A program made the position numbers and the translations under genes. A DNA stretch of 22,368 bases from a virus: the IMG/VR virus record IMGVR_UViG_3300044838_000141, positions 1-22,368 of that record; one strand, written 5' to 3'. Positions 6,622 to 19,919 of this stretch are shown here, piece after piece (positions within the stretch are counted from its first letter, which is position 1; the number at the start of each line of letters is the position of its first letter). A model generated the notes under the pieces. The model worked only from the letters and a program-made list of their open reading frames with translations. It did no database searches and was not told the DNA's origin.

Positions 6622-6696
6622 GGCGCATTCGTCTAGTGGTTAGGACGCAAGGTTCTCAACCTTGAAACAGGGGTTCAATTCCCCTATGCGCTACCA
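6622..6696 (+). tRNA. tRNA-Glu (anticodon CTC), CCA encoded
   Basis: The full cloverleaf can be drawn. The acceptor stem pairs GGCGCAT (6622-6628) with ATGCGCT (6686-6692), with one G-U pair at the top. The D arm is GTCT-AGTGGTTA-GGAC. The anticodon arm is CAAGG-TTCTCAA-CCTTG with anticodon CTC, decoding GAG. The T arm is GGGG-TTCAATT-CCCC. Discriminator A is at 6693 and CCA at 6694-6696. The D and T loops are canonical. I see no copy of its 3' end elsewhere in the window, so there is no evidence that it served as a phage attachment site here. Confidence 0.96.
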
Positions 6697-7808: not shown

Positions 7809-8270
7809 TTACATCACGATCTCGAGCGCTTCGATCATCATTTCATCGAAGGTCGGGACCGTTTTTGTCAGCTCCAGTGTGCCGTGGTCGAGGATCTGGA
7901 ATTCGCCGGTGGAGATGCGCTGGGCGTAGAGATCGAGCTTGGCCGATTCGCCGAAGATCAGGAAATCGCCGCACTTTTTCGTATCGCGCTGCAGCAGGTT
8001 CATTTTGACGAAACCTTCGATGGTGGCTTCGGGATAGCTGGCGTGCGGCGTGCTTTCGGAAGCGTAGACAGTCAGGTCGTCCAGCGTGAAACCGTTCACT
8101 TCCCTTAAAAACGCGAAGTAATCTTCCGGCAGGTCGGCCGCGAGCTTGGCCTTTGCCTCGTTCCTGAGCTTGCTGATGTCCCGTTCGTGAGCAGGTGATT
8201 GTAAGCTTTCTTCTACCTCTTCCGCCTCAATCCTGGCTTCTTCGAGCAGCTCCTTTAATCGTGCGTTCAT
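7809..8270 (-). CDS. SMI1/KNR4 (SUKH) family protein, YrhA-like
   Basis: A 153-aa protein. After a charged N-terminal helix (1-40) it has the SUKH signature: LPEDYFAFLREVNGFTLDDLTVY (47-69), then DFLIFGESAKLDLYAQRISTGEFQILD (102-128), then FDEMMIEAL near the end (141-149). SUKH proteins often act as immunity proteins against secreted or contact-dependent toxins, and some are general regulatory domains. No toxin gene is next to it, so an immunity role is only a family-level possibility. I chose the ATG at 8268-8270; the longer frame overlaps the upstream gene. No Shine-Dalgarno is visible, but a perfect palindrome GGGAAATTTCCC lies 10-21 bases upstream (8280-8291). Confidence 0.8.
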   Translation of the reverse strand: MNARLKELLEEARIEAEEVEESLQSPAHERDISKLRNEAKAKLAADLPEDYFAFLREVNGFTLDDLTVYASESTPHASYPEATIEGFVKMNLLQRDTKKCGDFLIFGESAKLDLYAQRISTGEFQILDHGTLELTKTVPTFDEMMIEALEIVM

Positions 8271-8352
8271 AGACTTTATGGGAAATTTCCCGCTACGGAG
8301 GAAATATACCACGAAAACGACAGGTTGCAACACATAGCAGCGCGCGCGGAGG

Positions 8353-9645
8353 TCATTTTTGCCTAAAATTACCATTTTTTTTCCGCCCGCCCAGTAATTC
8401 CCGCCAAACCTTCCACCGCCGGTACCGGACCGTCTCGCGGCCGATCCGTTTCCACGGCAGCTCGTTGCCGCCCATACCCGGGCTAACCGGGTCGTCATCC
8501 GGACCGCTCGGGGCATTGTGAAAATACTTGAAGGGATCGGCGTCGATCCTGATCCTACCGCGGTCTTCGTCGATCGTCAGTATCTGAATGAAATTGCCCT
8601 TCCTGTTGTTGTTGGCATGACGTCCCCCGGGCTCGGTCGTCGGCTCGTATTGCGTGGTGGTCCCGCAGCTGAATATATCGAACCTTCCGAACGGGCGGCG
8701 GTATTCGAGCTGCCGGTGTGTATGACCCGTCAGGACCGCGTCGATGCGGGCGCGATTCGCGGCCCTTAGAAATACATAGTCTTCGACGAGCCGGCAGTTG
8801 TCCTTGGCCCAGGGAAATTTCGGGGGGAAATGACAGGCCCAGATAAACGCCGGCACCTCGTTGTCAGGCAGTTCCCTGCGCACCTTGAGGGTTTGGTCGA
8901 CCAGCTCGTCGCAAATCTCCTGGTGCGCCTTTCCCTGGCCTATCCAGCCGCCGCCCCAGTCGTCGTGGTCGTCAAACTCCCTGAGCGTCATGTCGGCGAG
9001 AAAGATATAGGCGGTCAGCACCCGGTCGTTCGGCAGCGGGCTTTCCAGCCGCTTCATCATCTGGACCGGGGAACCGCGGAAATCATTAAGGGTGTCGAAG
9101 TTGGTCCCGCCCGGGTTAAAGAACCTCGGGATGTCTTTTATCGGCGTAGACCACGCGATCTCGTTCGTCAATTCGAACCGGTCGTGATTGCCCGGCAGGA
9201 ACCCGACCGGGATCTGGAGGGCCCCAAGGGTCGCATCGGCATTTTTATCGCTGTAATAAGCATCTTTCGTTAGGGTGGAAGGCGCGTTGAGAAATTCATC
9301 GACCAGCCGAATATCCTCCTCCTTTCCCGTGGTGGCCAGATCGCCGGTCAGGACGACGGCGTCGAGACAGCCCCCGGTGACATCGCCCCTGGGGTCGAAT
9401 TTTTTGGAATTGATGTAGACAAAAGCGGCAAAGCTCTCGAGGATCTCCGTCCTGTACGACGAGGCGGAGACCGTCCCGGTGCGGAAGCTCTCCCAGATGG
9501 CCCGCAGTGCTTCCCTCCTTTCCCTCAGGGCCGTGGGACTCACGTCCCAATTGGAAAGGTCGTGCCACGTGTCCTTTGGCGATCTGATCATCTCCATTTC
9601 CGAAATATGCAGGTCTGAGGCGTGAAGTATTTTGATGGGAGACAT
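8353..9645 (-). CDS. Calcineurin-like metallophosphoesterase
   Basis: A 430-aa two-metal phosphoesterase. The motifs in order are DLH at residues 11-13 (IKILHASDLHIS), GD at 101-102 (VVLTGDL), GNHD at 152-155, His272 in ACHFPP, and GHTH at 307-310. All the usual metal and phosphate ligands are present, so it should be catalytically active. The substrate cannot be told from sequence; the family includes nucleases and cyclic nucleotide and nucleotide-sugar hydrolases. The C-terminal 110 residues are strongly charged, with WKRIGRETVRYRRWKVWREL near the end. It has no signal peptide, so it is cytosolic. The start is well supported by AAAGGA a few bases upstream of the ATG. It is transcribed separately from the upstream gene, which has its own terminator (9899-9938). 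Confidence 0.88.
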   Translation of the reverse strand: MSPIKILHASDLHISEMEMIRSPKDTWHDLSNWDVSPTALRERREALRAIWESFRTGTVSASSYRTEILESFAAFVYINSKKFDPRGDVTGGCLDAVVLTGDLATTGKEEDIRLVDEFLNAPSTLTKDAYYSDKNADATLGALQIPVGFLPGNHDRFELTNEIAWSTPIKDIPRFFNPGGTNFDTLNDFRGSPVQMMKRLESPLPNDRVLTAYIFLADMTLREFDDHDDWGGGWIGQGKAHQEICDELVDQTLKVRRELPDNEVPAFIWACHFPPKFPWAKDNCRLVEDYVFLRAANRARIDAVLTGHTHRQLEYRRPFGRFDIFSCGTTTQYEPTTEPGGRHANNNRKGNFIQILTIDEDRGRIRIDADPFKYFHNAPSGPDDDPVSPGMGGNELPWKRIGRETVRYRRWKVWRELLGGRKKNGNFRQK

Positions 9646-9985
9646 AGTTTCCTTTAAATTTACTTTATTTTTTCCAACCGGCTGCGCACCGGGAACTACG
9701 CGATCCGTTCCCCGGCGCGACGCTTCACCCGGCCGGCTTGCAGTCCGATACCCCTTGAAATGTTCCGAATATCCTTTTCAGGCTATCTATTCGGCCGCAA
9801 AGTGCGTAAAGCTTTTTTTCGCAAAGCGCACAAAGAAAGACAAGGTTTTGTGCAAAATCAGCGGGTAGAAATATTCAGGAATGATACACGTAGTCGGTAA
9901 ATAAAATCAACCGGCCGCTTACGCGTATCCGGTTGATTAGTGTAACTGGAAAAGCTTGAATTACTGTCGGCCCGGTCAAAACGGT
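9646..9985. other. Intergenic region with terminator and CGCAAAG words
   Basis: No gene is supported. The region contains the intrinsic terminator of the upstream minus-strand gene (9899-9938), annotated separately. A patch at 9796-9838 has words of the CGCAAAG/GTGCG type (GCAAAGTGCGTAAAG, then CGCAAAGCGCACAAAG), apparently another degenerate word family. The last 20 bases before the phosphoesterase ATG carry its ribosome binding site. Confidence 0.6.
9899..9938 (-). terminator. Intrinsic terminator (minus strand) after the 345-aa orphan gene
   Basis: Perfect 10-bp stem AATCAACCGG (9905-9914) / CCGGTTGATT (9929-9938) with a 14-base loop. On the minus strand it continues into TTTTATTT. It lies 48 bases past the stop codon of the 9986-11023 gene and isolates that gene from the phosphoesterase. 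Confidence 0.8.
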
Positions 9986-11023
9986 CTAAGTATCGACTTT
10001 CGTATGAGTGGTTCCCGTCCCGTTGGCCCCGTTAGTTCCTTTGGTCCCATTGGTCCTGTTGGTTCCGTTGGTTCCGTTGGTCTCGCCGGGCGCCCTTGTT
10101 TCCGCCTTCATAAAATTCATCCTGATCGGTCTTCCCGCGGATTCCCTGCCTATCCGGATCGTATCTTCGGACGAATGCGGGGGGGCGAGTCTGCTCATAA
10201 CATCGGGGCTCATCTCTTCGGCGGGCATGCCCGGCCGTCCCACATCGCGAAGATAACTGGTTTGCGGCACGTGTGCATTTATCAGCCCGATCACCAGGTC
10301 GAGATCGGCATCGAGATCTCTCGGGAAGGGGTCGATAACGTCCGCCTTCAGTACCAGAACGCGGCCTGTTTTCGGCAATCGTTCCGGCGGCCGGGTATAG
10401 ATCATGCCGAACAGCGCCGGGTATTGGCCGTCAAGCCTCAACAGCCAGCACTGGAAATCCCACGCCAGCAAGAGCAAGACCTCTCTTGCGCGCGCTTTCA
10501 AGCTCCCCGGCGTTTTTTCGCTCCGGATCAGCTTGAGGCCGAGGTTGCTCACCAGCCGGCGCGTGAACAGGTCATGGATCGAGCGGGGCTCGTCTCCCTC
10601 CTCGTAACCCGCGATAGCGATCAACTCAAGATGAGCGAATATTCGCTCGGCTACGTCCTTCTGAAAAAAATCGCCGAAGTCGTCGTCGGATATCTCCGGC
10701 TCGTCGTCCCTGTGAAGCAAAAGCTTCGAGAAACCCGCGAGAGCACGCTTGTGCCAGGAATCGTTTTTCGACAGCTTTGGAGGTTTCAGGGGTCCGGACC
10801 GCGCCCCGTTTCCGTTTTCTATTGCCTTCCGTCTTCCGAAAACCTCGCTAAATTCCCTCGCCACGTAGTCCTTGTTCATCTCCTCGTTAAGCCGGAGGAT
10901 CTCATCCGTGATCGTCCGCTCCGGGATGTAGAAACGCGAGTCGTCAAACAAATTCTGAACTTCCGCGTCCCAGTTCTGCGAACCGTTTGTTCCGTTTATA
11001 CGGAATTTCTCATCCTGTGGCAT
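9986..11023 (-). CDS. Orphan 345-aa protein with Thr-Asn-Gly repeat tail
   Basis: Not recognised. The start is decided by a textbook AGGAGG five bases before the ATG at 11021-11023; an upstream in-frame start would be 20 codons longer without such a site. The protein is soluble. Residues 30-65 form a charged helix-rich region (FYIPERTITDEILRLNEEMNKDYVAREF). A predicted helical core (about 118-200) contains VLLLLAWDFQCWLLRLDGQYPALF. An alpha/beta segment follows at 206-260. The tail (315-337) is a run of TNG triplets encoded by 9-bp repeats. A shorter NGTNG occurs at residues 10-14. The gene sits behind a structured leader and ends in its own terminator, so it is a single-gene transcript under apparent RNA-level control. 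Function unknown. Confidence 0.78.
   Translation of the reverse strand: MPQDEKFRINGTNGSQNWDAEVQNLFDDSRFYIPERTITDEILRLNEEMNKDYVAREFSEVFGRRKAIENGNGARSGPLKPPKLSKNDSWHKRALAGFSKLLLHRDDEPEISDDDFGDFFQKDVAERIFAHLELIAIAGYEEGDEPRSIHDLFTRRLVSNLGLKLIRSEKTPGSLKARAREVLLLLAWDFQCWLLRLDGQYPALFGMIYTRPPERLPKTGRVLVLKADVIDPFPRDLDADLDLVIGLINAHVPQTSYLRDVGRPGMPAEEMSPDVMSRLAPPHSSEDTIRIGRESAGRPIRMNFMKAETRAPGETNGTNGTNRTNGTKGTNGANGTGTTHTKVDT
10013..10087. repeat. In-frame 9-bp repeats encoding a TNG tail
   Basis: Degenerate tandem GGTTCCGTT-type 9-mers (GGTTCCGTT, GGTCCTGTT, GGTCCCATT and similar on the plus strand). Read on the minus strand these encode TNGTNGTNRTNGTKG near the C-terminus of the orphan protein. The style is the same as the intergenic word arrays, but inside a gene and with the frame preserved because the unit is a multiple of three. 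Confidence 0.85.
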
Positions 11024-11093
11024 AACTTCCTCCTTTTGCATCGAAGCCCTATCATTTGCAGCCCATCCGGGCCGCAAAACCATCGAGCAGAAT

Positions 11094-11225
11094 TGGCGAA
11101 AAGACCAAAATAAAAAATCTTCTCGCCACGTAAAAAGGGAAACAGCTTCGGGGGCGGTTTCCCTTTCTACACCTAATAAGACTTAACTGCAACACTTTTT
11201 TGCAAAATTATTTTCTCCGTCTTAT
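11094..11225 (-). promoter_or_regulatory. Structured 5' leader / candidate attenuator of the orphan gene
   Basis: On the minus strand the following occur in order: stem ATAAGAC...GTCTTAT with an inner TGCAA...TTGCA hairpin; a 10-bp perfect stem AAAGGGAAAC/GTTTCCCTTT followed by TTTTT (intrinsic terminator form); and an 11-bp stem TGGCGAGAAGA/TCTTTTCGCCA (one G-U) with a U-rich loop. The orphan gene's ATG is 70 bases further on. This order suggests premature termination or a short independent RNA. I see no clear anti-terminator pairing and recognise no known riboswitch class. Confidence 0.5.
11129..11166 (-). terminator. Intrinsic terminator in leader of orphan gene (minus strand)
   Basis: Stem AAAGGGAAAC (11134-11143) / GTTTCCCTTT (11157-11166), perfect over 10 bp with a 13-base loop. 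The minus-strand sequence continues TTTTTAC. It sits upstream of the orphan gene's ATG and 480 bases past the sigma-factor stop. Confidence 0.75.
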
Positions 11226-11260
11226 CTATTTGGCTGCGGCACAAGAGTCGTTTTTCGACA

Positions 11261-11288
11261 GAACTACTATAAAATATAACAATAGTTC
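11261..11288. promoter_or_regulatory. Imperfect inverted repeat with AT-rich centre (operator-like)
   Basis: GAACTACTAT (11261-11270) and the reverse complement of ACAATAGTTC (11279-11288) match at 8 of 10 positions around a TATAAAATATAA-like centre. A dyad overlapping AT-rich DNA upstream of the leader could be a repressor site over a promoter. No unambiguous -35/-10 pair was found. Confidence 0.35.
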
Positions 11289-11506
11289 TAAATCGTCCCG
11301 AATTCAACGGCCGAAACCGAAAAGCCGATAAAACACCTGTTTTGAAGTATTTGCGCGGAGCTGAAACACAAAATTCAATAGAAAAGATACTGTTGAAATG
11401 CTCAAAAAGGAGCAGTTTGCCGTCCGCGGTAACTAATCATACTAGAAAATTAAATTTTTTAAAATCTTTTTTTTCAGGGTCTTATATATTAGCGGTCAAC
11501 CTTGTT

Positions 11507-11546
11507 TTTGAAACGAACGGCTTTATTTTGAAACGAACGGCTTTAT
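11507..11546. repeat. Perfect 20-bp tandem duplication
   Basis: TTTGAAACGAACGGCTTTAT occurs twice in direct succession (11507-11526 and 11527-11546) with no mismatch, about 100 bases past the stop of the sigma-factor gene. It could be a recent duplication or a paired protein-binding site. Confidence 0.9.
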
Positions 11547-11649
11547 TTGCGGAGATCCCGTAGTGGGGCCGGTAAAATTAACCGGGCAGGCGGAAGATAT
11601 CCGGCGGGCCTTTCCGGTGCATTCAAGTTCGCCTGCTTCGAATGCCGCT

Positions 11650-12207
11650 TCAGGACCTTTCCGCGGTTTTTATCTTCCCGATGATCTTTTTAAGCTTGTA
11701 CCTGAGTTGGGCATGCATCGCGCGCACGTCCTCCTCGTTAGTCCCAAGGATCTTCGCGATCTCGGGGTCTTTGTACCCGAAAAGGTACATTTTCATCAAC
11801 TTCTTCTCGTCGTCCGTATCCAGCATATTCCATACCTTGGAAAGCATGATGCCGGATTCATGTTTCTTGTCTTCCTGCGCGGGGTCGGGCAGCTCGTAAA
11901 CAACCGCTTCGTCATCGAGGCTCGATTCTCTCGAGGGGTTCTCCCGCTTGAGGCGGTCGATAATTGTATTCCGGACGGCCGACCTCAAATAGGACGGCGG
12001 GAACGTGACGTTCGCGCGCTGCTCCACGCTCATCCGCAGGAGCTTAACGACCACCGTTTGCGCGCAGTCTTCGGCTGCCGATCGGTCGAGCGGGTAGCTA
12101 CGCACCATATAGAGGCTGCAGTCGACCAGAAAACGATAGACCTTCAGAACCATTTGAGGGTGCTCTCCGTCCAGCTGGGAGAGTTCGATTTTCTCGGTTT
12201 CTGCCAT
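11650..12207 (-). CDS. RNA polymerase sigma factor, sigma-70/ECF-like
   Basis: A 185-aa protein from the ATG at 12205-12207; an alternative TTG start lies 14 codons upstream. Region 2 covers about residues 20-90: AEDCAQTVVVKLLRM corresponds to the usual DxxQxxFxxL region 2.2 helix, and FPPSYLRSAVRNTIIDRLKREN to regions 2.3-2.4 (compare FRAWLxxIARNxxIDxxRR). Region 4 covers about 125-180: MLDTDDEKKLMKMYLFGYKDPEIAKILGTNEEDV is the helix-turn-helix that reads the -35 element. Region 3 is absent, as in ECF factors. No anti-sigma gene is next to it. It sits just downstream of the portal gene on the same strand but separated by 640 bases of repeats. Confidence 0.82.
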   Translation of the reverse strand: MAETEKIELSQLDGEHPQMVLKVYRFLVDCSLYMVRSYPLDRSAAEDCAQTVVVKLLRMSVEQRANVTFPPSYLRSAVRNTIIDRLKRENPSRESSLDDEAVVYELPDPAQEDKKHESGIMLSKVWNMLDTDDEKKLMKMYLFGYKDPEIAKILGTNEEDVRAMHAQLRYKLKKIIGKIKTAERS

Positions 12208-12850
12208 AGAAAACAGGGAGTTTCGGTCCGCGGAACCGCTTTGCGGCAAAACACTCTGCTTACATTAGCACGAAAAAGAATTTTTGCGCGATGGCGACGG
12301 CTATTCGTTCGTGGTTCGTGGTTGGTGGTTCGTAGTTCGTATTCCGGCTGCCGGCCACGGACCACCGGCCACCGACTACCAACCACCGACCACGACTACC
12401 AACGCCTTCTTTTTTTCTTTACTCCACAAGAGTTTAGTGATATTTTTGCAGGACTCCCGTTTTACATATTCCCGGCCCGGAGGATTTGTTTCGTGTTCGT
12501 TCGATTTTCGTTTAATTCGTGTTGATTCGTGTTGATTCGTGGTTTCATCTTAACCGCGAAAAAACCGGAACCGCGAATTCACACGAATAAGAACTGTTCG
12601 CTGCGGCGGAATTTACACTCCTATTCTACCGGCGCCCGTTCGGGTTTTTACTAAAATTCCGATTCCGCTCGCGGAATCCTTGCCATTTTAGATTTGAATT
12701 TCGGTTGATCATGGTTCCAGTCTGGCGTTATCACGAATCGACACGAATAAGAACAAGGGAATCGGAAATAATTTAAACGCGGAGTACGCAGAGAAAGAAA
12801 CCGTGTTTACTCTTCCTCGGCGCTCTCCGCGGTCTCTGCGTTGGAAATCC
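12208..12850. repeat. Cluster of four repeat elements between portal and sigma-factor genes
   Basis: No gene is supported. In order: a GGTTCGTGGTTGGTGG arm (12309-12340) facing ACCACCGGCCACCGACTACC words (12361-12400); an ATTCGTG palindrome (12509-12596) with arms of three ATTCGTG words and core TTAACCGCGAAAAAACCGGAACC; a perfect hairpin GATTCCGC-TC-GCGGAATC (12661-12678); a half element at 12712-12754 whose GGTTCCAGTC core is reversed relative to the standard copies; and a CGCAGAG palindrome (12776-12845) touching the portal stop. The last element forms the right border of the cellular block. Confidence 0.85.
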
Positions 12851-14299
12851 CTACTCGGCATTAAACGCCTCCGCCGAGGCCTGTTTCTCGCCCAGGATCC
12901 TTTTCACATCTACCTCGCCGTAGCCCGCCTCGATCAGCGCCTGCGCTTCCGAGATGCCGAGCTCCTTTTTCACCGCGATGTTCTCGAGTTTTTCCTTTTC
13001 CGAGAGCGGCGCCGGGTCTTCCCAATCGGCAAACAGCCGGGCGTCCGTCTTCCCTTCCACGGCAAGCGCAAACGCCATCACGTCTTCCCACACCTGCCCG
13101 AAGCTCTCCTGCCTGTCGCGCACCTTGGCGATAAACCGCGACTCGGCCCTTTTCAGCGCCTCGCCCGAGGGAAAATCGCCCGTCACCTGCATAAAGTAGT
13201 ACATCGGCGTGCCCGTTACGCAGGCCATGTCCATGCGGAAGCTGTCCTTTACTTTGAGAAACTGCTCGAGATTGGCCGCCTCGAAATCGCCGAATTTCGC
13301 GTCCTGGTTCTCGGTGATCCAGAGGTGGTCGACCCCGGCCTTAAACGGCGGAACGGGCTGGCCGTCCTCGCCGTACTCGATCTCGATCCCGGCCGCCCAG
13401 CGCTGCCGGTAGCTGGCAAACTCCATCGCCACCAGCATATCCAGCACCGATTTATTGAGCGCGTCCTGCACCGGCATCGCCGCGTCGAGCTCCGATTGGC
13501 CGGCCGCCCCGATGTCCGCGTTATTGGCAAAGTGAAACACCGGAACGACCCCGTACGGGTTGGGAATAACGGAACTCTCCTCCTGTTGTACCGCCGCCGG
13601 CCCGGCGGCTGTATCGCCGGCGACCCGCCGGCTCTTACTCCCCTCCTGGACAGGAGGGGTGGCCGTCAGGCCGGGGTGGTCGAGCTGATTTTCGACCTTG
13701 GACCTTGGACTTTGGACTTTGGACCCGCCGAAAGCCACAAACTCCTTCGCGTCGGGCAGGGTGTTCTCGCTCGCCGCTTTCGAGATATATTTCTCGATCC
13801 TGTCCGGGTAAAAAAGGTTAAGCCGCACCCGTTTATCTTGTGTGCGCCAGTGCTTGGCGGCCCACAGCACGCGGCCCGGCGTTTCCTCGTCGTAAACGGC
13901 GGTGCACATCCCGGCCTTGTTCGGGTAGATGGTCGCCTCGCCCCGGGCGTTCGGCCAGACGATCACATAGGCGTCGCCGTTCTTGACCGCTTCCTTGTGT
14001 ACCTCGCCCGATCGGCGGCCCATCCGGTTGGTCTGCCAGATCCGCCAGGCGTCGGTCGAAAGAGAGCCGCCGCCCTGCTCGACCCGGAATTCGCGGACCT
14101 TGAGCTTGTCGCGCACGGCGTCGCAAACGGCCGGGCAGAGGTTCAGCGCAAACTCGCGAAACATCGACCCGAAGGCGTTTTTAAACTTCTCGGTGGCAAA
14201 CGCCAGGTCGTGATCGCCCTTGTAATACCGCTCCGCCCGGCGGTAACGGTCGCTCGATGTACGGAAATTCTTGAGTGCTGTTTCTATGTCTGTGTTCAT
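12851..14299 (-). CDS. Phage portal protein, SPP1 gp6-like
   Basis: The portal forms the dodecameric DNA channel at one capsid vertex. The 482-aa protein shows the SPP1 Gp6-type layout: an N-terminal RRAERYYKGDH (20-30); NLCPAVCDAVRDKL (53-66); a KNGDAYVIVWPN beta-clip strand (106-117); FYPDRIEKYI (163-172); NPYGVVPVFHFAN (247-259); the stem and wing region with LLVAMEFASYRQRWAAG-like helices (about 290-310); and a C-terminal GEALKRAESRFIAKVRDRQESFG crown segment. Residues 191-243 are an in-frame low-complexity insertion made of repeat words. The ATG at 14299 has no Shine-Dalgarno but an A/T-rich leader. The terminase gene is directly upstream; the scaffold gene, normally next downstream, is 10 kb away. 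Confidence 0.88.
   Translation of the reverse strand: MNTDIETALKNFRTSSDRYRRAERYYKGDHDLAFATEKFKNAFGSMFREFALNLCPAVCDAVRDKLKVREFRVEQGGGSLSTDAWRIWQTNRMGRRSGEVHKEAVKNGDAYVIVWPNARGEATIYPNKAGMCTAVYDEETPGRVLWAAKHWRTQDKRVRLNLFYPDRIEKYISKAASENTLPDAKEFVAFGGSKVQSPRSKVENQLDHPGLTATPPVQEGSKSRRVAGDTAAGPAAVQQEESSVIPNPYGVVPVFHFANNADIGAAGQSELDAAMPVQDALNKSVLDMLVAMEFASYRQRWAAGIEIEYGEDGQPVPPFKAGVDHLWITENQDAKFGDFEAANLEQFLKVKDSFRMDMACVTGTPMYYFMQVTGDFPSGEALKRAESRFIAKVRDRQESFGQVWEDVMAFALAVEGKTDARLFADWEDPAPLSEKEKLENIAVKKELGISEAQALIEAGYGEVDVKRILGEKQASAEAFNAE
13571..13729. repeat. In-frame repeat module inside the portal gene
   Basis: It encodes portal residues 191-243. From right to left it consists of GGACTTTGGACCTTGG words (13693-13725), a CCCCTCCTG-type hairpin (about 13638-13658), and a GC-rich palindrome with CCGCCGGCCCGGCGG (13591-13605). 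The module TGTACCGCCGCCGGCCCGGC recurs in the endolysin gene (about 18387-18411), where it encodes nearly the same peptide (VA-x-x-TAAGPAA-VQQ). It sits between the PDRIEKY and NPYGVVPV motifs, at a surface loop by family analogy. Confidence 0.88.
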
Positions 14300-14314
14300 A
14301 ATTTATCTGTTTTT

Positions 14315-14460
14315 TAAGTCCCAAGTCCCAATAGTCCCAAAGTCCCAAGTCCTCAAACTCCAGCTTCCAAGATGACCCTTAGTCTTCGGGACGATCCACT
14401 TGGGACTTGGGACTTGGGACTTGGGACTTGGGACTTGGGACTTGGGACTTGGGACTTGGG
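14315..14460. repeat. ACTTGGG palindrome between terminase and portal genes
   Basis: The right arm is nine perfect ACTTGGG 7-mers (14398-14460). The left arm (14315-14352) holds degenerate copies in the opposite sense (AAGTCCCAAGTCCCAATAGT). A 45-base non-repeat loop lies between them. The array ends eight bases before the terminase stop codon. The perfect right arm against a degenerate left arm suggests recent expansion of one side by slippage. Confidence 0.95.
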
Positions 14461-14468
14461 ACTAACTC

Positions 14469-16121
14469 CTACCATCCAAACGACTTACCCCCCGGCTTCC
14501 TGAGCAGTCTCACCGCCAAACTCACCGCGTCGACCTGGTCGTCATGCGTATCCCCGCGTCCCGTAAACCGGCATACCTCCTCCAAAAAATCGTTGATCCA
14601 GGGGCCTTGGACGAGATATACCCTCCCCTCTTCCGCCAAATTCGCCCACGCCAGCGCCCTGGTATACTTGTCCGCGTCGACCTTCACCGCCTTGAACGCC
14701 ACGCCCCGCACCTGCCGAATCTGTCTAAGGTCCTGGACAAACGCCTGCCCGTGCAGCGCCTTTTCTATCCCGTGTTGGGTCTTCTTCTCCGTCGTCATCC
14801 TCTCGACCACATACCTCCGCTGCTCGGGATACTCGATCCGTTTACGAAACCCGTCGGCGATAAACAAATTGCCCTGGTTATCGAACCCGCAGCGGAAACT
14901 TGCCGTGTAATCCGCGCTCGTCCTGGTCGAAACGGCCAGGTCGTAACCCCTCGCCCAGCGGTCAAGGTCCGGGGTACGGGCCACGATCTTGTCCTTTCCG
15001 AACCACTTTCGGTTAAAAAGCCCGCCTTCCGCCGGGATCGGACTTTGCTGGAATAATGCCGAGAAGGAGTATGCGCCCAGCTTCTGACGGATCCGGTGAA
15101 GGGCTTCCTCGTCATACCGCTCGGGACACAGCGCTTCGCCCGGTAAACGTCCAAGCGGATCGGCCGCTTCGGTTGACGGGGTGGTGTGCTTCGATTTCGG
15201 ATTTTTCGCGGCCTTGCGGCTTGTCTTCTCCGCGGCCTCGCCGCTTGTCTTCTTCGCGGCTTTGCCGCATGAATGTGCGGAAAGGCTCAGCCTTTCCGTC
15301 GCCGGTTCCAAAATATCCGGAGGCTGCGCCTCCGTCTCCGCGCCCTTGCTTACGCGCGGGCTTCTGCATCCTTCCTCGGACCTTGGACTCGCCGCGGCTT
15401 CGCCCTCCGCCAGCGCCGGCAACGAGACCACTTCCCATTTCTCCCCGCCCGGCTCTTTCATCTCCTTCAGCAGATGGCCCGCGAGATCGTCGTCATGCCA
15501 CCTGGTCTGGATCAGGATGATCGCCGCCCCCGGTTCCTGCCGCGTGTAGATATCGTCGTTAAACCAATCCAGGCATGTTTCCCTGAAAGCCGTGCTTTCG
15601 GCATGTGCCCGTCCCTTTACCGGGTCGTCTATAATGATCAGCCCCGCGCCGAACCCGGTCACGCCCGCGCCCACCCCGACCGCTCTGACGCCCCCGCCCT
15701 GCTTCGTTTCCCATTCCTCCGCGGCGCGCCTCTCCTGCGAGAGTTCAATCTTGTTCTCGATCACCCGTCTGACCCTTCGCGAGATCCGGTTGGCCAGCTT
15801 TTGGTTATAGCTTCCGAGGATAATATTCAGCTTGGGGTTTCGCTTAAGCATATAAGCGGCGTACCTGACGCTAACCGTCTCGGTCTTGCTGTGTCTGGGC
15901 GGCATAAATATCATCAGGCGTTTTGTTTCGCCGATAGTTATTTTCCGCAGCCGCTCGTATAGGTAGATTTGATGCGGCCAGTCCCAGGTCATTTCCGGGG
16001 AAGTCTGGTGCAGCCATGTTTTAAAATCGAACCCGTGCATTTTTTTGTATCGGCGTGTTCTCTTTAAAAATTCGAGGCTTAGTTTAAACGGGTTGTGTCC
16101 TTTTCTTCTTCGTCCGGACAT
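14469..16121 (-). CDS. terL: Phage terminase large subunit
   Basis: The DNA-packaging motor ATPase and headful nuclease, 550 aa. ATPase domain: Walker A-type MPPRHSKTE at residues 73-81, Walker B LIIIDDP at 161-167, and coupling motif QTRWHDDDLAG at 205-215. RNase H-like nuclease domain: first acidic residue in RGYDLAVS (391-398), last acidic pair in GDTHDDQVDAVSLA (523-536). All catalytic residues appear intact. Between the domains, LPALAEG (234-240) should pass straight to DPLGRLPGEALCPERYDEE (321-339). An 80-residue repeat-derived insertion separates them. No small terminase gene is evident upstream. The ATG at 16119-16121 has no Shine-Dalgarno. Confidence 0.93.
   Translation of the reverse strand: MSGRRRKGHNPFKLSLEFLKRTRRYKKMHGFDFKTWLHQTSPEMTWDWPHQIYLYERLRKITIGETKRLMIFMPPRHSKTETVSVRYAAYMLKRNPKLNIILGSYNQKLANRISRRVRRVIENKIELSQERRAAEEWETKQGGGVRAVGVGAGVTGFGAGLIIIDDPVKGRAHAESTAFRETCLDWFNDDIYTRQEPGAAIILIQTRWHDDDLAGHLLKEMKEPGGEKWEVVSLPALAEGEAAASPRSEEGCRSPRVSKGAETEAQPPDILEPATERLSLSAHSCGKAAKKTSGEAAEKTSRKAAKNPKSKHTTPSTEAADPLGRLPGEALCPERYDEEALHRIRQKLGAYSFSALFQQSPIPAEGGLFNRKWFGKDKIVARTPDLDRWARGYDLAVSTRTSADYTASFRCGFDNQGNLFIADGFRKRIEYPEQRRYVVERMTTEKKTQHGIEKALHGQAFVQDLRQIRQVRGVAFKAVKVDADKYTRALAWANLAEEGRVYLVQGPWINDFLEEVCRFTGRGDTHDDQVDAVSLAVRLLRKPGGKSFGW
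15162..15401. repeat. In-frame repeat insertion in the terminase interdomain linker
   Basis: It encodes about residues 241-320 of the large terminase. It contains a perfect palindrome GGAAAGGCT-C-AGCCTTTCC (15278-15296), a hairpin CGGAGGC-TGC-GCCTCCG (15318-15334), a CGCCCTTGCTTACGCGCGGG word (15340-15359) that recurs at 19530-19549, GACCTTGGAC (15380-15389), and three in-frame copies of a GCGGC-TTGTCTTC unit. The translated product is Ala, Glu, Ser and Lys-rich with AAKKTSGEAAEKTSRKAAK. Confidence 0.85.
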
Positions 16122-16395
16122 GAGGTTACTACTGAGCGCGGGCGGCTCGCCCGCTCTTTGTATTTATTCGTGTTGATTCGTGTAAATTCGTGGTTACTTC
16201 CTGATAACCGCTAAATCCCACATCCCAAATTGACGCGGGGCTGCGCCTCCGTGGCTGCTCTGTCGCGTCAGCGACCATTGAATTTAGCCGTGCGTTTCGA
16301 CCCACGGGACGAGATCGATCGAATTCTTGTCGCGCGAGCGACAACTGATATTTTCAACCGTCGCTGACGCGGCCCTAATCCTCGCGGCAGAGCCG
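16122..16395. repeat. REP-like hairpin cluster plus half ATTCGTG element
   Basis: No gene is supported. An ATTCGTG left arm with core GGTTACTTCCTGATAACCGC lies at 16161-16210; its right arm is missing. Several short GC-rich hairpins follow: GGGGCTGCGCCTCC (16237-16250), GTCGC-GTCA-GCGAC (16262-16275), TTGTCGC-GCGA-GCGACAA (16327-16344), the related CGTCGCTGACGCGG (16360-16373), and GCGGC-AGA-GCCGC (16384-16396). This gap, where a small terminase gene would be expected in a P22-type order, contains only repeats. Confidence 0.75.
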
Positions 16396-16989
16396 CTACC
16401 TGAACAGAGCAAACAACGCCACACCGATAAGGACGTCCCGGACCCGTTTCAGCGGCGAGGTTTTTTTCTTTTTCAGCGTCTCGATCAGCTTGTCCTGGGC
16501 GGCGATGACGCCGTCCTTGGCGACGATCGTCTCGTTCTTGGCCGCGACCGTCTCCCTTAAACTAACTGCTTCCGCCTTCCGGGTCTCGTTCAACTCGAGC
16601 AGGACCCCCGAGGTGCGTTTCTCCGTCTCGAGCCGCTCTTTTAAAAGGCCATTCTCCCTTTCAAGCGCGTCGGCGAGGATGCGGGTCTTTGCGAGATCTT
16701 CTACCGCGGCGGCGCAGGAATTTATTAGTTTTTGAAGGTCGTCGGGTGTCGCTCCCACCACCCCGTCAGCCGAAGCGGCCGCCACCCCTCCTGAACCAGG
16801 AGGGGAGCCTGGAACCGCCGACTTTGGACCTTGGATCTGGGACTTGGGACTAATTACATCCGTGCCCGAGCTCTTCGAGCCGCCGGCAGAGGTCTGTGCT
16901 TGTACTATCGAGGGCGCGAACGCCGCGAGCGCGAGCAGCATCATTGCGGGCATTACCCGTTCGATCGGAAATTTTTTCCAGTTCTTCAT
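16396..16989 (-). CDS. Secreted coiled-coil protein overlapping the spanin-like gene; possible outer spanin partner
   Basis: A 197-aa protein with a signal peptide (basic start MKNWKKFPIERV, hydrophobic core 14-29, likely cut after VQAQ). A repeat-derived Gly/Ser/Pro/Ala linker follows (about 44-80), then a long heptad-rich coiled coil (about 95-175) and a C-terminal hydrophobic stretch (186-196). Its first 140 bases overlap the end of the upstream spanin-like gene in a different frame, the arrangement typical of two-component spanins (Rz/Rz1). However, it has no lipobox Cys after the signal peptide and is much longer than Rz1, so the outer-spanin call is tentative. It could instead be another envelope or lysis-timing protein. 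Confidence 0.55.
   Translation of the reverse strand: MKNWKKFPIERVMPAMMLLALAAFAPSIVQAQTSAGGSKSSGTDVISPKSQIQGPKSAVPGSPPGSGGVAAASADGVVGATPDDLQKLINSCAAAVEDLAKTRILADALERENGLLKERLETEKRTSGVLLELNETRKAEAVSLRETVAAKNETIVAKDGVIAAQDKLIETLKKKKTSPLKRVRDVLIGVALFALFR
16750..16860. repeat. In-frame repeat module in the spanin-region gene
   Basis: It encodes about residues 44-80 of the 16396-16989 product. It contains the hairpin CCCCTCCTG-AACC-AGGAGGGG (16786-16806, arms overlapping by one pair) and GACTTTGGACCTTGG and GGGACTTGGGAC words (16820-16850). The same two components, hairpin then TTGGAC words, make up part of the portal insertion. Its right end coincides with the stop codon of the overlapping spanin-like frame (16850-16852). 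Confidence 0.8.
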
Positions 16990-17281
16990 CTTGTTTTTTT
17001 GCTATCTTTTGGATCTCCGCGAGAGATCCTTCGAGCCGCTCGGCCTGCAGCCGGTATTTTTCGGCCTCCTGTTCGCGTGCGGAGGCGATCTTTTGCTTAT
17101 TATCGGCCTGATCTTTGGCGGCCCGGACGTCGCGCTCGAGCCCGCGGATCGTAAAATGCGACCACGCCGAGCCGACCATAACGCAGACCAAAATCGCGCC
17201 GGCGATCGTCAGCGCCAGGTAGATCTTTCGCCGCGGCGATAATTCAGTTAATGCCAGTGAAAAAATGTCGCGAATATTCAT
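16850..17281 (-). CDS. Rz/i-spanin-like lysis protein
   Basis: A 143-aa inner-membrane protein: short cytoplasmic start (1-18, including SPRRK), one hydrophobic helix (19-41), then a periplasmic charged coiled coil (about 45-105) and a C-terminal segment with RNDAARARGVRALDSTSTD and two Cys (residues 131 and 142, LCRRLEELGHGCN). This type II topology with coiled coil is that of phage Rz inner spanins, which with an outer spanin fuse the two membranes in the last step of lysis. It lies between the holin-like gene and an overlapping exported protein, which supports the call. The overlap covers its last 46 codons. No Shine-Dalgarno was found. Confidence 0.72.
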   Translation of the reverse strand: MNIRDIFSLALTELSPRRKIYLALTIAGAILVCVMVGSAWSHFTIRGLERDVRAAKDQADNKQKIASAREQEAEKYRLQAERLEGSLAEIQKIAKKQDEELEKISDRTGNARNDAARARGVRALDSTSTDLCRRLEELGHGCN

Positions 17282-17289
17282 AAGATTTT

Positions 17290-17450
17290 TTCAACGAGAG
17301 AGACCGCGGAGGGCGCAGAGAACAAGAAGAAGGTTTTTAGCAGGGATATTTAGTGAAAATGGCCGACTATATTGATTTTTACCCATTCCATCCTGACATC
17401 CTCGGTTAAATCTTCCTCCGCGTACTCCGCGCTCTCCGCGTTAAAACCAT
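17290..17450. repeat. CGCAGAG-family palindrome
   Basis: The left arm GACCGCGGAGGGCGCAGAGA is at about 17302-17321. The right arm, with TCCGCGTACTCCGCGCTCTC, is at about 17416-17435 and ends CGCGTTAAAAC. The spacer of about 95 bases is longer than in other copies and contains non-repeat sequence without a convincing gene. Confidence 0.75.
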
Positions 17451-17454
17451 TCTT

Positions 17455-17688
17455 TTAAATCTCCTCTTCCCCATCGATCCGTGTCCTGGCCTTTCGCCTC
17501 TCGGCCATTTGCCGGAAGCGTATCTGCACCATCACATCCACGGCCTTACCGATGCAAAAGAAAAGTATCGGCAGGACGATGGCCGAAATAATGGTGATGA
17601 GGGTCTGCGTTTCCATCACCGCAAAAAAGGAGGTCACGCTGCTAAAGCCTGCGAGGAGTATGTTTTTCATGTCCGAGTGAGAATTCAT
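17455..17688 (-). CDS. Holin-like small membrane protein
   Basis: A 77-aa protein with two hydrophobic segments (about residues 9-25 and 28-50) and a highly charged C-terminal tail (RFRQMAERRKARTRIDGEEEI), the usual design of small phage holins that permeabilise the inner membrane at a set time. It is located between the endolysin and the spanin-like gene, as expected for a lysis cassette. Two in-frame starts exist (Met1 and Met7, MNSHSDMKN). Dual starts control timing in lambda S, but here that is only a possibility. No sequence family was recognised, so the call rests on size, topology and context. Confidence 0.65.
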   Translation of the reverse strand: MNSHSDMKNILLAGFSSVTSFFAVMETQTLITIISAIVLPILFFCIGKAVDVMVQIRFRQMAERRKARTRIDGEEEI

Positions 17689-17696
17689 TTCAGATT

Positions 17697-17932
17697 TCTG
17701 ACTTTTGATTATTGATTTTTGATTTATTCGTGTTGATTTCGTGCTAATTCGTGGTTACTTCCTGATAATCGCGAAGACTGGAACCCACGAAGTTGGTCAG
17801 TTGTTCGTTGTCAGTGGTTAGTGGTTTTTGTTATTCGTGTTGATTCGTGATAATTCGCGGTTTCTCCTTATCCTCGGATCAAGGGAAACCGCGAATCAAC
17901 ACGAAATACACGAACAACGGACCACAAACGAA
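17697..17932. repeat. Two ATTCGTG elements side by side, with GGTTAGTGG shell
   Basis: First element, 17724-17790: left arm TTATTCGTGTTGATTTCGTG, core GGTTACTTCCTGATAATCGC and GACTGGAACCC, with a truncated right arm. Then GTTGTTCGTTGTCAGTGGTT words (17799-17830). Second element, 17831-17915: left arm TTATTCGTGTTGATTCGTGA, core TTATCCTCGGATCAAGGGAAACC, right arm CGAATCAACACGAAATACACG, followed by GAACAACGGACCAC. The two cores belong to the two different subtypes. Confidence 0.9.
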
Positions 17933-17933
17933 C

Positions 17934-19247
17934 TTACCCCCGAACAGCTCTTTCCCTTATCTTCCCGAGCGCAATCTGCCTATACAGATAATAGAGCATG
18001 AACGCGCCGGCGATCACGGCCACCGTCAGCCATACCTCGCGGGGCAGCCCGATGATAAAAGCGATCACCGCCCAGATCGATTGCCAGATCGTGCTCCCGA
18101 TGGTCGTCCAGAGCGATTTGGCCGCGTCCTTGCGCTGGCCGAGCCCGGAAACGACCTCGTTTACCCGGTCGAATTTCGCGCCCGCGGTGTCGATAACTTC
18201 TCCAGCCCGGTTCAGAAGCCCGCCTTCGCTTTCCCCTTCTCCCCCTCTCCCATTCTCCCCTTCTTTATTCAGCGGTTGAGCCGTAGTGTGGGCGTTTTCA
18301 GGGGATTCTGGCAGGATTTCAGGGGGAAACTGAGGTATCGCAAGGGTTTTTGTGGGCTGATTTAACGGCTCAACCGCCGAATCTTGTTGTACCGCCGCCG
18401 CCGGCCCGGCGGCTGTCTCGCGGGCGACCCGCCCACGCTCTTCCGATTTTGGATTTGGGATATGTGAGTCCCGAGTCCCGGGTTCCACAAGTCCCAAGTC
18501 GATGCGATTTTCACTTCGATCACCAACCTTGGGACCTGAGACTTGGGACTTGGGACTCTCGATTTGATCGAGCTTAACTCCGTGAACGTTGACCGGCAGC
18601 TCGAGCGGCCAGTTGCCGCGCGCGATCTGGGCGAGAAAAAAGTCGGTCCGGTAATCGGTCACGGCCAGCCGCGGAACGGATTCGAGCCAGGCGTCGCGGT
18701 TTTTTACATACGAATAGATCCACGCCTTTTCAAACTCAACGGCCGTCGAATAATTCTTTTTCGAGATCTTTACCCGGTCGCGAATGCGCGCGTAAGAGCC
18801 GTGGTTGATCGAATCGTATATGACCGCCAGCGAAAGGGGCAGCACAAAACCGGACCCCTCGGCCGCCTCGACCGCCGGTCGCAAGTATCTCTTCTCGGCA
18901 ATCTCGTGCTGCGCGGCGCGCATCTCGCTGGTCGGCGCCGCGGCCTTCAGGGCCTTTTTGAACCGCGCGCTGCCGGAGAGCTCGCCGATCGCGCCCGGGC
19001 CTTTTTGCCTGAGCAGCGGCAGCGCTTCCTCGATAGCTGCCCGGCCGATGGTCCCGCCGTTTCTGAAATACGCGGTTATCACCTCGAGCAGGGAGCCCGA
19101 GCGGTGCGTAAACTGGTTGATGCCGTAAGAGACACCGGCCCCGTCGTTGAGCACCACGCACGCCCCGTAATCGCCAAAAGCCTTCGAGGTTTCGAATATA
19201 TGCACGATTGCCAGCGCCTTTAATTTATCTTTTTCGGAAAAACTCAT
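17934..19247 (-). CDS. GH46 chitosanase-like endolysin with C-terminal membrane anchor
   Basis: 437 aa. Residues 1-225 resemble a GH46-type lysozyme-fold hydrolase: ALAIVHIFETSKAFGDYGAC (11-30), NDGAGVSYGINQFTHRSGSL (34-53), and SLAVIYDSINHGSYARIRD (139-157). Glu19 and Asp35 are spaced like the catalytic Glu and Asp of that family. As a phage lysis gene it would cut peptidoglycan glycan strands rather than chitosan; that is inference from context. Residues 228-345 are a repeat-derived low-complexity linker. Residues 375-425 hold one or two hydrophobic helices (SIWAVIAFIIGLP and LTVAVIAGAFMLYYLY), an unusual C-terminal anchor. The ATG at 19245-19247 has no Shine-Dalgarno. The holin-like and spanin-like genes follow. 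Confidence 0.72.
   Translation of the reverse strand: MSFSEKDKLKALAIVHIFETSKAFGDYGACVVLNDGAGVSYGINQFTHRSGSLLEVITAYFRNGGTIGRAAIEEALPLLRQKGPGAIGELSGSARFKKALKAAAPTSEMRAAQHEIAEKRYLRPAVEAAEGSGFVLPLSLAVIYDSINHGSYARIRDRVKISKKNYSTAVEFEKAWIYSYVKNRDAWLESVPRLAVTDYRTDFFLAQIARGNWPLELPVNVHGVKLDQIESPKSQVSGPKVGDRSENRIDLGLVEPGTRDSHIPNPKSEERGRVARETAAGPAAAVQQDSAVEPLNQPTKTLAIPQFPPEILPESPENAHTTAQPLNKEGENGRGGEGESEGGLLNRAGEVIDTAGAKFDRVNEVVSGLGQRKDAAKSLWTTIGSTIWQSIWAVIAFIIGLPREVWLTVAVIAGAFMLYYLYRQIALGKIRERAVRG
18213..18566. repeat. Large in-frame repeat module in the endolysin gene
   Basis: It encodes about residues 228-345. From right to left it contains GGGACTTGGGACTC words (18545-18558), AAGTCCCAAGTCGATGCG (18489-18506), GAGTCCCGAGTCCCGGG (18467-18483), GATTTTGGATTTGGGAT (18445-18461), the CCGCCGCCGGCCCGGCGG palindrome (18394-18412), which matches the portal module, and a CCTTCTCCCCCTCTCCC pyrimidine run (18234-18250). 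At least four word families are stacked in one reading frame without a stop codon. Confidence 0.9.
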
Positions 19248-19919
19248 TTCAATTTTGGATTTTGGTCTTGGATTTCGATCTTTTAAATTGCCGTCTGCTT
19301 TACCTTCGGTCTTTGACCTTTGATTTAATGCCTTTTTTCGTGTCGATTCGTGGTATTGCTTCCGGTTTTATTCGTGTTAATTCGTGTTAATTCGTGGTTA
19401 CTTCCCGGTAACCGCAAAATACCGGAACCCGTGAATCAACACGAAAGACCGGAAATCCGCGATTTTCGCTTTGAGCATTTAGTTTTTTTATTATCTTTCG
19501 TGGGCAATTTATCCAGGGTTGAGTGTTTCGCCCTTACTTATGTGCGGGCTTTTGCACTTGATTTGCGCGTCTAACGGGTGTATGATATTTATAACAATCG
19601 GACGATATTGGGCGAACCGTTTTTCGCTTGTTTATTTCTTCCGCCTCTTATATATCGTCCGCCGGGGCCGGGGAAAACCGGGCATCTCCCGGCCCGATTA
19701 CCAGAATAGGCAAAAAGGCCCGGCCCAATCAATTATGCTTTTTATTATGCACCCTACTCTGTTGAGTTTTGGAGGAATCGATAATTTAGAAGGAATGTAA
19801 GCAATTCGTGTTTTGGGGGGTCGTAATTCGTGGTTGGCGCTTACTCTAAACGATCTCAATGAACTGTTCCACGGACCACGGACCACGGACCGCTAACAAC
19901 TAACGACAAACGACTGATA
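19248..19919. other. Divergent intergenic region with repeats and an inverted repeat
   Basis: No gene is convincing. It holds TTTTGGA words (19253-19275), a compound ATTCGTG element (19336-19447) with core GGTTACTTCCCGGTAACCGC, the CGCCCTTACTTATGTGCGGG word (19530-19549) also present in the terminase gene, AT-rich sequence (19581-19596), a perfect 10-bp inverted repeat CGGACGATAT/ATATCGTCCG (19599-19608 with 19652-19661), a GC-rich CCGGG-CATCT-CCCGG hairpin (19678-19692), and CGGACCA words (19872-19892). It separates the minus-strand late genes from the plus-strand HTH-like gene, so promoters in both directions are expected here, but none is clear. Confidence 0.65.
19599..19661. repeat. 10-bp inverted repeat in the divergent control region
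   Basis: CGGACGATAT (19599-19608) and ATATCGTCCG (19652-19661) are exact reverse complements, 43 bases apart, beside AT-rich DNA. They could be paired operator half-sites or the stem of an RNA hairpin. The spacing does not favour a simple terminator. Confidence 0.5.

Follow-up and report, generated by a model that had tools for sequence, protein, structure and literature searches.

The window, i.e., the whole stretch of 22,368 nucleotides analyzed here, carries on its minus strand a gene for the large terminase TerL (14469–16121, 550 aa), in which Terminase_6N and Terminase_6C were recognized (Pfam, 1.6e-08 and 1.8e-13). Pfam, alignment, and structural model identified an ATPase and an RNase H-like nuclease domain with Walker and acidic nuclease residues. 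A preliminary description of this DNA had called these residues intact, and the motifs are indeed present, though the P-loop deviates from the usual form (PPRHSKTE instead of PPRHGKSE; PPRHSKSE in the relative L003). Further genes on the minus strand encode a portal protein (SPP1_portal, Pfam 1.2e-24; 12851–14299), a major capsid protein (Pfam; 936–1787), a scaffold-like protein (Pfam Phage_scaffold, below its cut-off; 1953–2480), and a GH46 lysin with a repeat-rich C-terminal part (Pfam 1.6e-16; 17934–19247). The nearest annotated phages show less than 60% identity.

At the junction between LPALAE and DPLGR, the TerL ORF contains an in-frame, stop-free insert of 81 residues (residues 240–320; 15162–15404, minus strand), one residue more than the 80 (15162–15401) reported before. 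The flanks, described as normally contiguous, are separated in compact homologues by two residues only, typically EN (LPALAE-EN-DPLGR), i.e., LPALAEENDPLGR or a close variant. Structure prediction, which had been suggested as a check, was performed with AlphaFold on an alignment of 36 sequences and yielded a mean pLDDT of 81 and a pTM of 0.74. Confidence was low over residues 243–318 (pLDDT 31–38) and mostly above 85 elsewhere; the linker insert is thus predicted to be disordered and the remainder of the protein to be folded.

The insert strings together small palindromes, a triple repeat with 24-nt units, and two dispersed words. Both hairpins named previously were found, GGAAAGGCTCAGCCTTTCC at 15279–15297, which scores best among the inverted repeats of the insert (arms of 10 bp), and CGGAGGCTGCGCCTCCG at 15318–15334. 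Three tandem 24-nt units (15197–15268, minus strand), each with a GCGGC..GCCGC palindrome, encode GKAAKKTS-GEAAEKTS-RKAAKNPK. The word CGCCCTTGCTTACGCGCGGG does recur, at 19529–19548 (plus strand) where 19530–19549 had been given, but the copy is degenerate, with three mismatches (17/20); no shuffle gave a second match. The preliminary description had missed that the module CACACCACCCCGTCAACCGAAGCGGC (15163–15188, minus strand) has a second copy with two mismatches (expectation 0) at 16754–16779 (plus strand), antisense within the ORF of a 197-aa Rz-like protein. The dispersed word ATGCAGAAGCCCGCGCGTAAGCAAGGGCG (coding strand; 15341–15369, minus strand) has exact 28-nt copies in the Acidobacteriota locus L041, and 23 nt of it lie within the TerL linker of L024. 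The core of this word, GCCCGCGCGTAAGCAAGGGCG, has more than 100 copies, spread over 33 of 162 genomes of the Blastocatellia class (at most 23 per genome) and often in inverted pairs about 40 bp apart, whereas the reversed control gave no match in the 162 genomes. Taken alone, the insert was marginal in its best inverted-repeat score against shuffles (p = 0.08), with an RNA folding z of −2.8, and displayed no clear terminal inverted repeat and no clear terminal GTAG or CGTC tag. It has no Rfam match; the sole Rfam match in the window is a tRNA at 6622–6693.

Repeats are also found elsewhere in the window. Long 9-nt tandem arrays (AACTCGCCG) at 1–119 and 738–982 flank an ORF downstream of the capsid gene, and arrays of the 10-mer TTCGTGTTGATTCGTG and of heptamers occupy most intergenic gaps, often as gene-flanking inverted pairs (about 20 places, e.g., 3043, 3739, 7705, 12506, 16157, 17834, and 20433). 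The GH46 lysin and the Rz-like protein likewise look repeat-rich. The portal protein contains a repeat-derived linker insert of its own (13568–13735, minus strand), with near-identical flanks and different content in L002 and L003/L015.

Relatives of the terminase and turnover of the linker

Two close IMG/VR relatives, L002 (82% identity; the closest) and L003 (67%), carry an insert at the same site with another sequence. In a scan of bacterial genomes, the family was found mainly in the Acidobacteriota class Blastocatellia, chiefly in Pyrinomonadaceae and Chloracidobacterium-like assemblies, with relatives in 40 of 162 Blastocatellia-class genomes; the records come almost entirely from metagenomes. 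In an alignment with 63 rows, inserts fall at three sites, at reference residues ~61 (N-terminal), 161 (within the ATPase domain), and, for the linker itself, 276. Single segments reach 276 aa, and one TerL has a length of 1037 aa. The linker had been proposed as one of few places where such an insert could be tolerated; this does not hold, as two further TerL sites and the portal site are also filled. Among 58 readable relatives, 32 have a linker insert of 14–251 aa, whereas the rest have none or two residues; the compact form is found in distant relatives and in one group of Acidobacteriota cluster copies. Linker contents of the 32 are repeat-derived and largely unrelated to one another, and no close homologue combines the same linker with an absence of repeats: their linkers differ and are mostly repeat-derived as well.

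Turnover of the linker is fast relative to the core. In L023 and L042, which come from one genome, the cores are 97% identical in amino acids and 93% in nucleotides, and the 41-residue linkers are unrelated. The cores of the window TerL and L002 are 94% and 91% identical, respectively, and their linkers share only the 26-nt tail module formed by CACACCACCCCGTCAACCGAAGCGGC. On the IQ-TREE core tree, the presence of a linker insert changes seven times, with at least five changes forced by supported branches. Synonymous divergence between the window and L002 is about 0.4–0.6 before the linker and 0.13–0.28 after it; a recombination breakpoint at the linker is not claimed, since other pairs show no clean step.

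Inverted repeats beyond all 60 shuffles were detected in 19 of 31 linker inserts, in 11 of 23 inserts at site 161, and in 3 of 21 at site 61. Several inserts form one hairpin spanning the whole length, with heptamer arrays in L016 and L023, nonamer arrays in L041, and a perfect 24-bp arm in L042. In L003, two inverted GTAGCGCC... units with visible GTAG ends enclose the insert, an arrangement reminiscent of a REPIN. Inverted ends are present only in a subset, and the end sequences differ from insert to insert. Words from TerL inserts are found again at other places, both in the same genomes and in further ones.

The reading frame is preserved throughout: frame 0 is open in all 29 linker inserts with a length of 20 aa or more, whereas both other frames are closed in 21 of them. 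Judged by the dN/dS values of the closest pairs (0.02–0.19), the cores are under strong purifying selection. Inserts common to close pairs had pN/pS values of 0.3–0.7 (four comparisons) and 1.3 in one short case. The preliminary description was correct in reading a repeat-derived, in-frame insertion at the ATPase–nuclease boundary of an otherwise intact terminase, and its interpretation of the insert is partly supported.

Genomic context of the terminase

The TerL gene family is not simply a phage family but part of a vertically inherited chromosomal cluster. This cluster is short and comprises a GH46 lysin, an Rz-like protein, TerL (in some lineages), portal, scaffold, capsid, and a protein of about 107 aa (936–2480 and 12851–19247 in the window; host loci L251–L259). 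GH46 relatives are present in all nine host clusters examined, and relatives of the scaffold-like protein sit between portal and capsid. Portal and capsid were found in 38 and 42 of 162 Blastocatellia-class genomes, respectively, nearly always in one copy each, and the relative of the window capsid is single-copy in most of the Acidobacteriota genomes that carry it. Most Acidobacteriota capsids are 71–82% identical to that of the window. Host neighbors of the cluster include CarA, TrmFO/GidA-family, and GGDEF proteins, and neither an integrase nor a tail family was recognized among the cluster and neighbor proteins scanned. Distances between capsids correlated with those between the DNA polymerases PolA of 20 genomes (Mantel r = 0.66, p = 0.0001; mean ratio 0.91), and shallow clades agree. 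The single-copy capsid, its co-divergence with PolA, and the housekeeping neighbors suggest that the cluster is likely a vertically inherited, domesticated element. As the window carries the cluster, it may itself be a chromosomal fragment. Between portal and scaffold, the window contains a sigma-factor-like ORF, a 365-aa ORF, a metallophosphoesterase, and a further ORF (7809–12249); the same four ORFs follow the portal in the same order in L015 (3428–7194).

In many lineages, TerL has left the cluster and now stands alone at conserved chromosomal loci, and these copies carry the heaviest load of repeats. Positions common across genomes, with neighbors identified by eye, are GAPDH-PGK (G006 and G102), inositol-phosphate synthase (G006, G105, and G106), electron-transfer flavoprotein/aminotransferase (G094, G103, G104, and G106), and a PqqD-like gene (G003, G005, and G086), among others. 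The idea that repeat-rich TerLs belong to prophages was dropped, as their neighbors are housekeeping genes. Solitary TerLs (L022, L023, L042, L143, L145, L148, L176, L180, L188, and others) have an unassigned N-terminal extension of about 60 residues and number one or two per genome. A linker insert is present in 26 of 28 TerLs away from the portal vs. 2 of 17 adjoining it (Fisher's exact test, 5e-8), a contrast that comes down to one to four independent phylogenetic pairs; solitary location and linker inserts are associated, and association is all that is observed.

Multicopy repeats were identified within the gene for all six TerLs, but only for 6 of 497 other ORFs with a length of 200 aa or more (~800 kb from three genomes), an enrichment figure biased by the choice of genomes with long TerLs. 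In the same genomes, all 27 full-length matches to PolA (DNA polymerase I; 894–911 aa) are without inserts. The clearest other insert-carrying host ORF in the sample looks like MutS2 (L196–L205; G006 contig 7, ~46695–49182 of the joined sequence) and contains NPQSAIR heptamer repeats in two internal stretches. That TerL is so often affected and host proteins barely argues that passive tolerance alone is an insufficient explanation.

Origin of the inserts and comparison with known systems

We consider it likely that the inserts are host repeats of the REP/RPE type, accreted in the terL gene of a domesticated cluster and translated as a disordered tether between two domains. Chromosomal repeats that are short and dispersed (palindromes of the REP/RPE type and words related to them) would enter terL in frame, arriving as mobile or copied elements, probably via a REP-associated Y1 transposase or repeat-mediated recombination. 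Selection would retain in-frame, stop-free arrivals alone, and survival would be limited to linkers between folded domains. Because terL sits in a domesticated phage-derived head, packaging, and lysis cluster inherited with the Acidobacteriota chromosome, and not in a fast-turning phage, it would have been exposed to repeats for long, and this residence in a repeat-rich chromosome would lead to accumulation. The motor has presumably remained functional, the added chain serving as a passive tether. Y1_Tnp was detected in 35 of 35 genomes checked, including those with compact TerLs; the presence of a RAYT is uninformative as a discriminator, as every genome tested was positive.

The extra chain could also be more than filler. 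It is conceivable, but in our view unlikely, that an order-scale Acidobacteriota lineage keeps a functional, vertically inherited GTA-like capsid system for DNA packaging, that its terminase moved to solitary chromosomal loci in many lineages, and that the continually replaced, repeat-derived linkers help to modify or regulate the motor. Linker change might likewise be favored as adaptive variation, e.g., by motor retuning or by escape from a host sensor. Avs-type STAND proteins are host sensors that recognize terminase and portal, the two proteins in which the insert hotspots of the window lie, and both the fast linker turnover and the far higher frequency of inserts in TerL than in other ORFs of the same genomes fit such a scenario. 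However, the pN/pS values of inserts held in common indicate weaker constraint and not positive selection, the window's lysin and Rz-like protein seem rich in repeats as well, and a chromosomal gene that is inherited vertically has no evident reason to escape the immunity of its own host. Escape from Avs is not supported, and we judge adaptive variation as a whole to be quite unlikely. An attraction of repeats by the gene or its product, TerL being an ATPase–nuclease that might cause DNA breaks close to where it is encoded, seems very doubtful to us: it would agree with the over-representation of intragenic REPs in DNA-processing enzymes (Di Nocera et al. 2013, PMC3733652), with the MutS2-like ORF, and with the ratio of affected TerLs to other ORFs, but PolA is clean in the same genomes, and that ratio was drawn from genomes selected by their long TerLs.

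Two readings would remove the translated insert from consideration altogether, and we find both extremely improbable. Terminase genes are known intein sites, and many inserts fold as a single long hairpin, as could be expected of an intein, an intron, or a translational bypass. Against a self-removing element of this kind, content is wholly different between relatives, and the frame is always kept, which would be needless for a removed RNA or a bypassed gap; neither an Rfam match in the insert nor a Pfam splicing domain in six insert-bearing TerLs was found. No intein or other domain was recognized within the insert, and these six TerLs gave no other Pfam domain above cut-off. The metagenomic origin of nearly all records could instead point to an assembly artefact, since repeats provoke misassembly; yet assemblies made independently in many studies show such inserts again and again, always in frame and at these three sites, and with intact cores.

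If repeat accretion in a domesticated terminase gene is the correct explanation, palindromic repeats, mobile or copied, are able to remodel the linkers of an essential-type molecular motor time and again without destroying it, and the family offers a natural experiment on the flexibility of the joint between the ATPase and the nuclease. The context suggests that Acidobacteriota harbor a domesticated capsid cluster not described so far, which bears on the spread of GTA-like systems, and metagenome collections can list chromosomal loci of this kind as viruses. We found no report of a domesticated GTA-like cluster in Acidobacteriota in the open-access literature. Gene transfer agents of alphaproteobacteria and others are similarly phage-derived, single-copy, and inherited with the chromosome, with no integrase seen (PMC11841831). 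The cluster described here, a candidate GTA-like system, shares the single-copy and vertical character, with no integrase among the proteins scanned, but a full particle set including a tail was not found among these proteins; only head, packaging, and lysis genes were recognized.

By sequence criteria, we class the TerL inserts as a variant of the REP/RPE-type protein-coding palindromes: the units are palindromic (the hairpins of the window each being short), multicopy, and dispersed, and they lie in frame in a gene still under selection. No earlier report of a terminase gene family with protein-coding palindromic repeats was found in the open-access literature. Long inverted repeats within translated genes are also known from nematomorph mitochondria, in which, however, both arms encode conserved protein parts, whereas the palindromes described here lie in non-conserved linkers (PMC6649704). 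Intragenic REPs occur mainly in replication and repair genes, in many cases the sole genes of a species to be tagged by a REP, and two Xanthomonas species carry different REPs at about the same site of recB (Di Nocera et al. 2013, PMC3733652). This bias toward DNA-processing enzymes is already known and unexplained, and TerL adds dozens of examples from a single gene. The inserts resemble GTAG/CGTC REPs and REPINs in their position inside genes and, in L003, in the inverted GTAGCGCC... units (PMC3733652). That study differs in that its text is without phage or terminase; in TerL, one and the same site has been filled over and over in a lineage of order scale, with inserts of up to 276 aa. The Rickettsia RPEs are closely comparable, being short palindromic repeats that lie in frame within protein genes and are apparently tolerated (review PMC10969869). 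While RPEs belong to defined families and affect many unrelated host genes, many unrelated kinds of repeat have here filled the same three linkers of one phage-derived Acidobacteriota gene.
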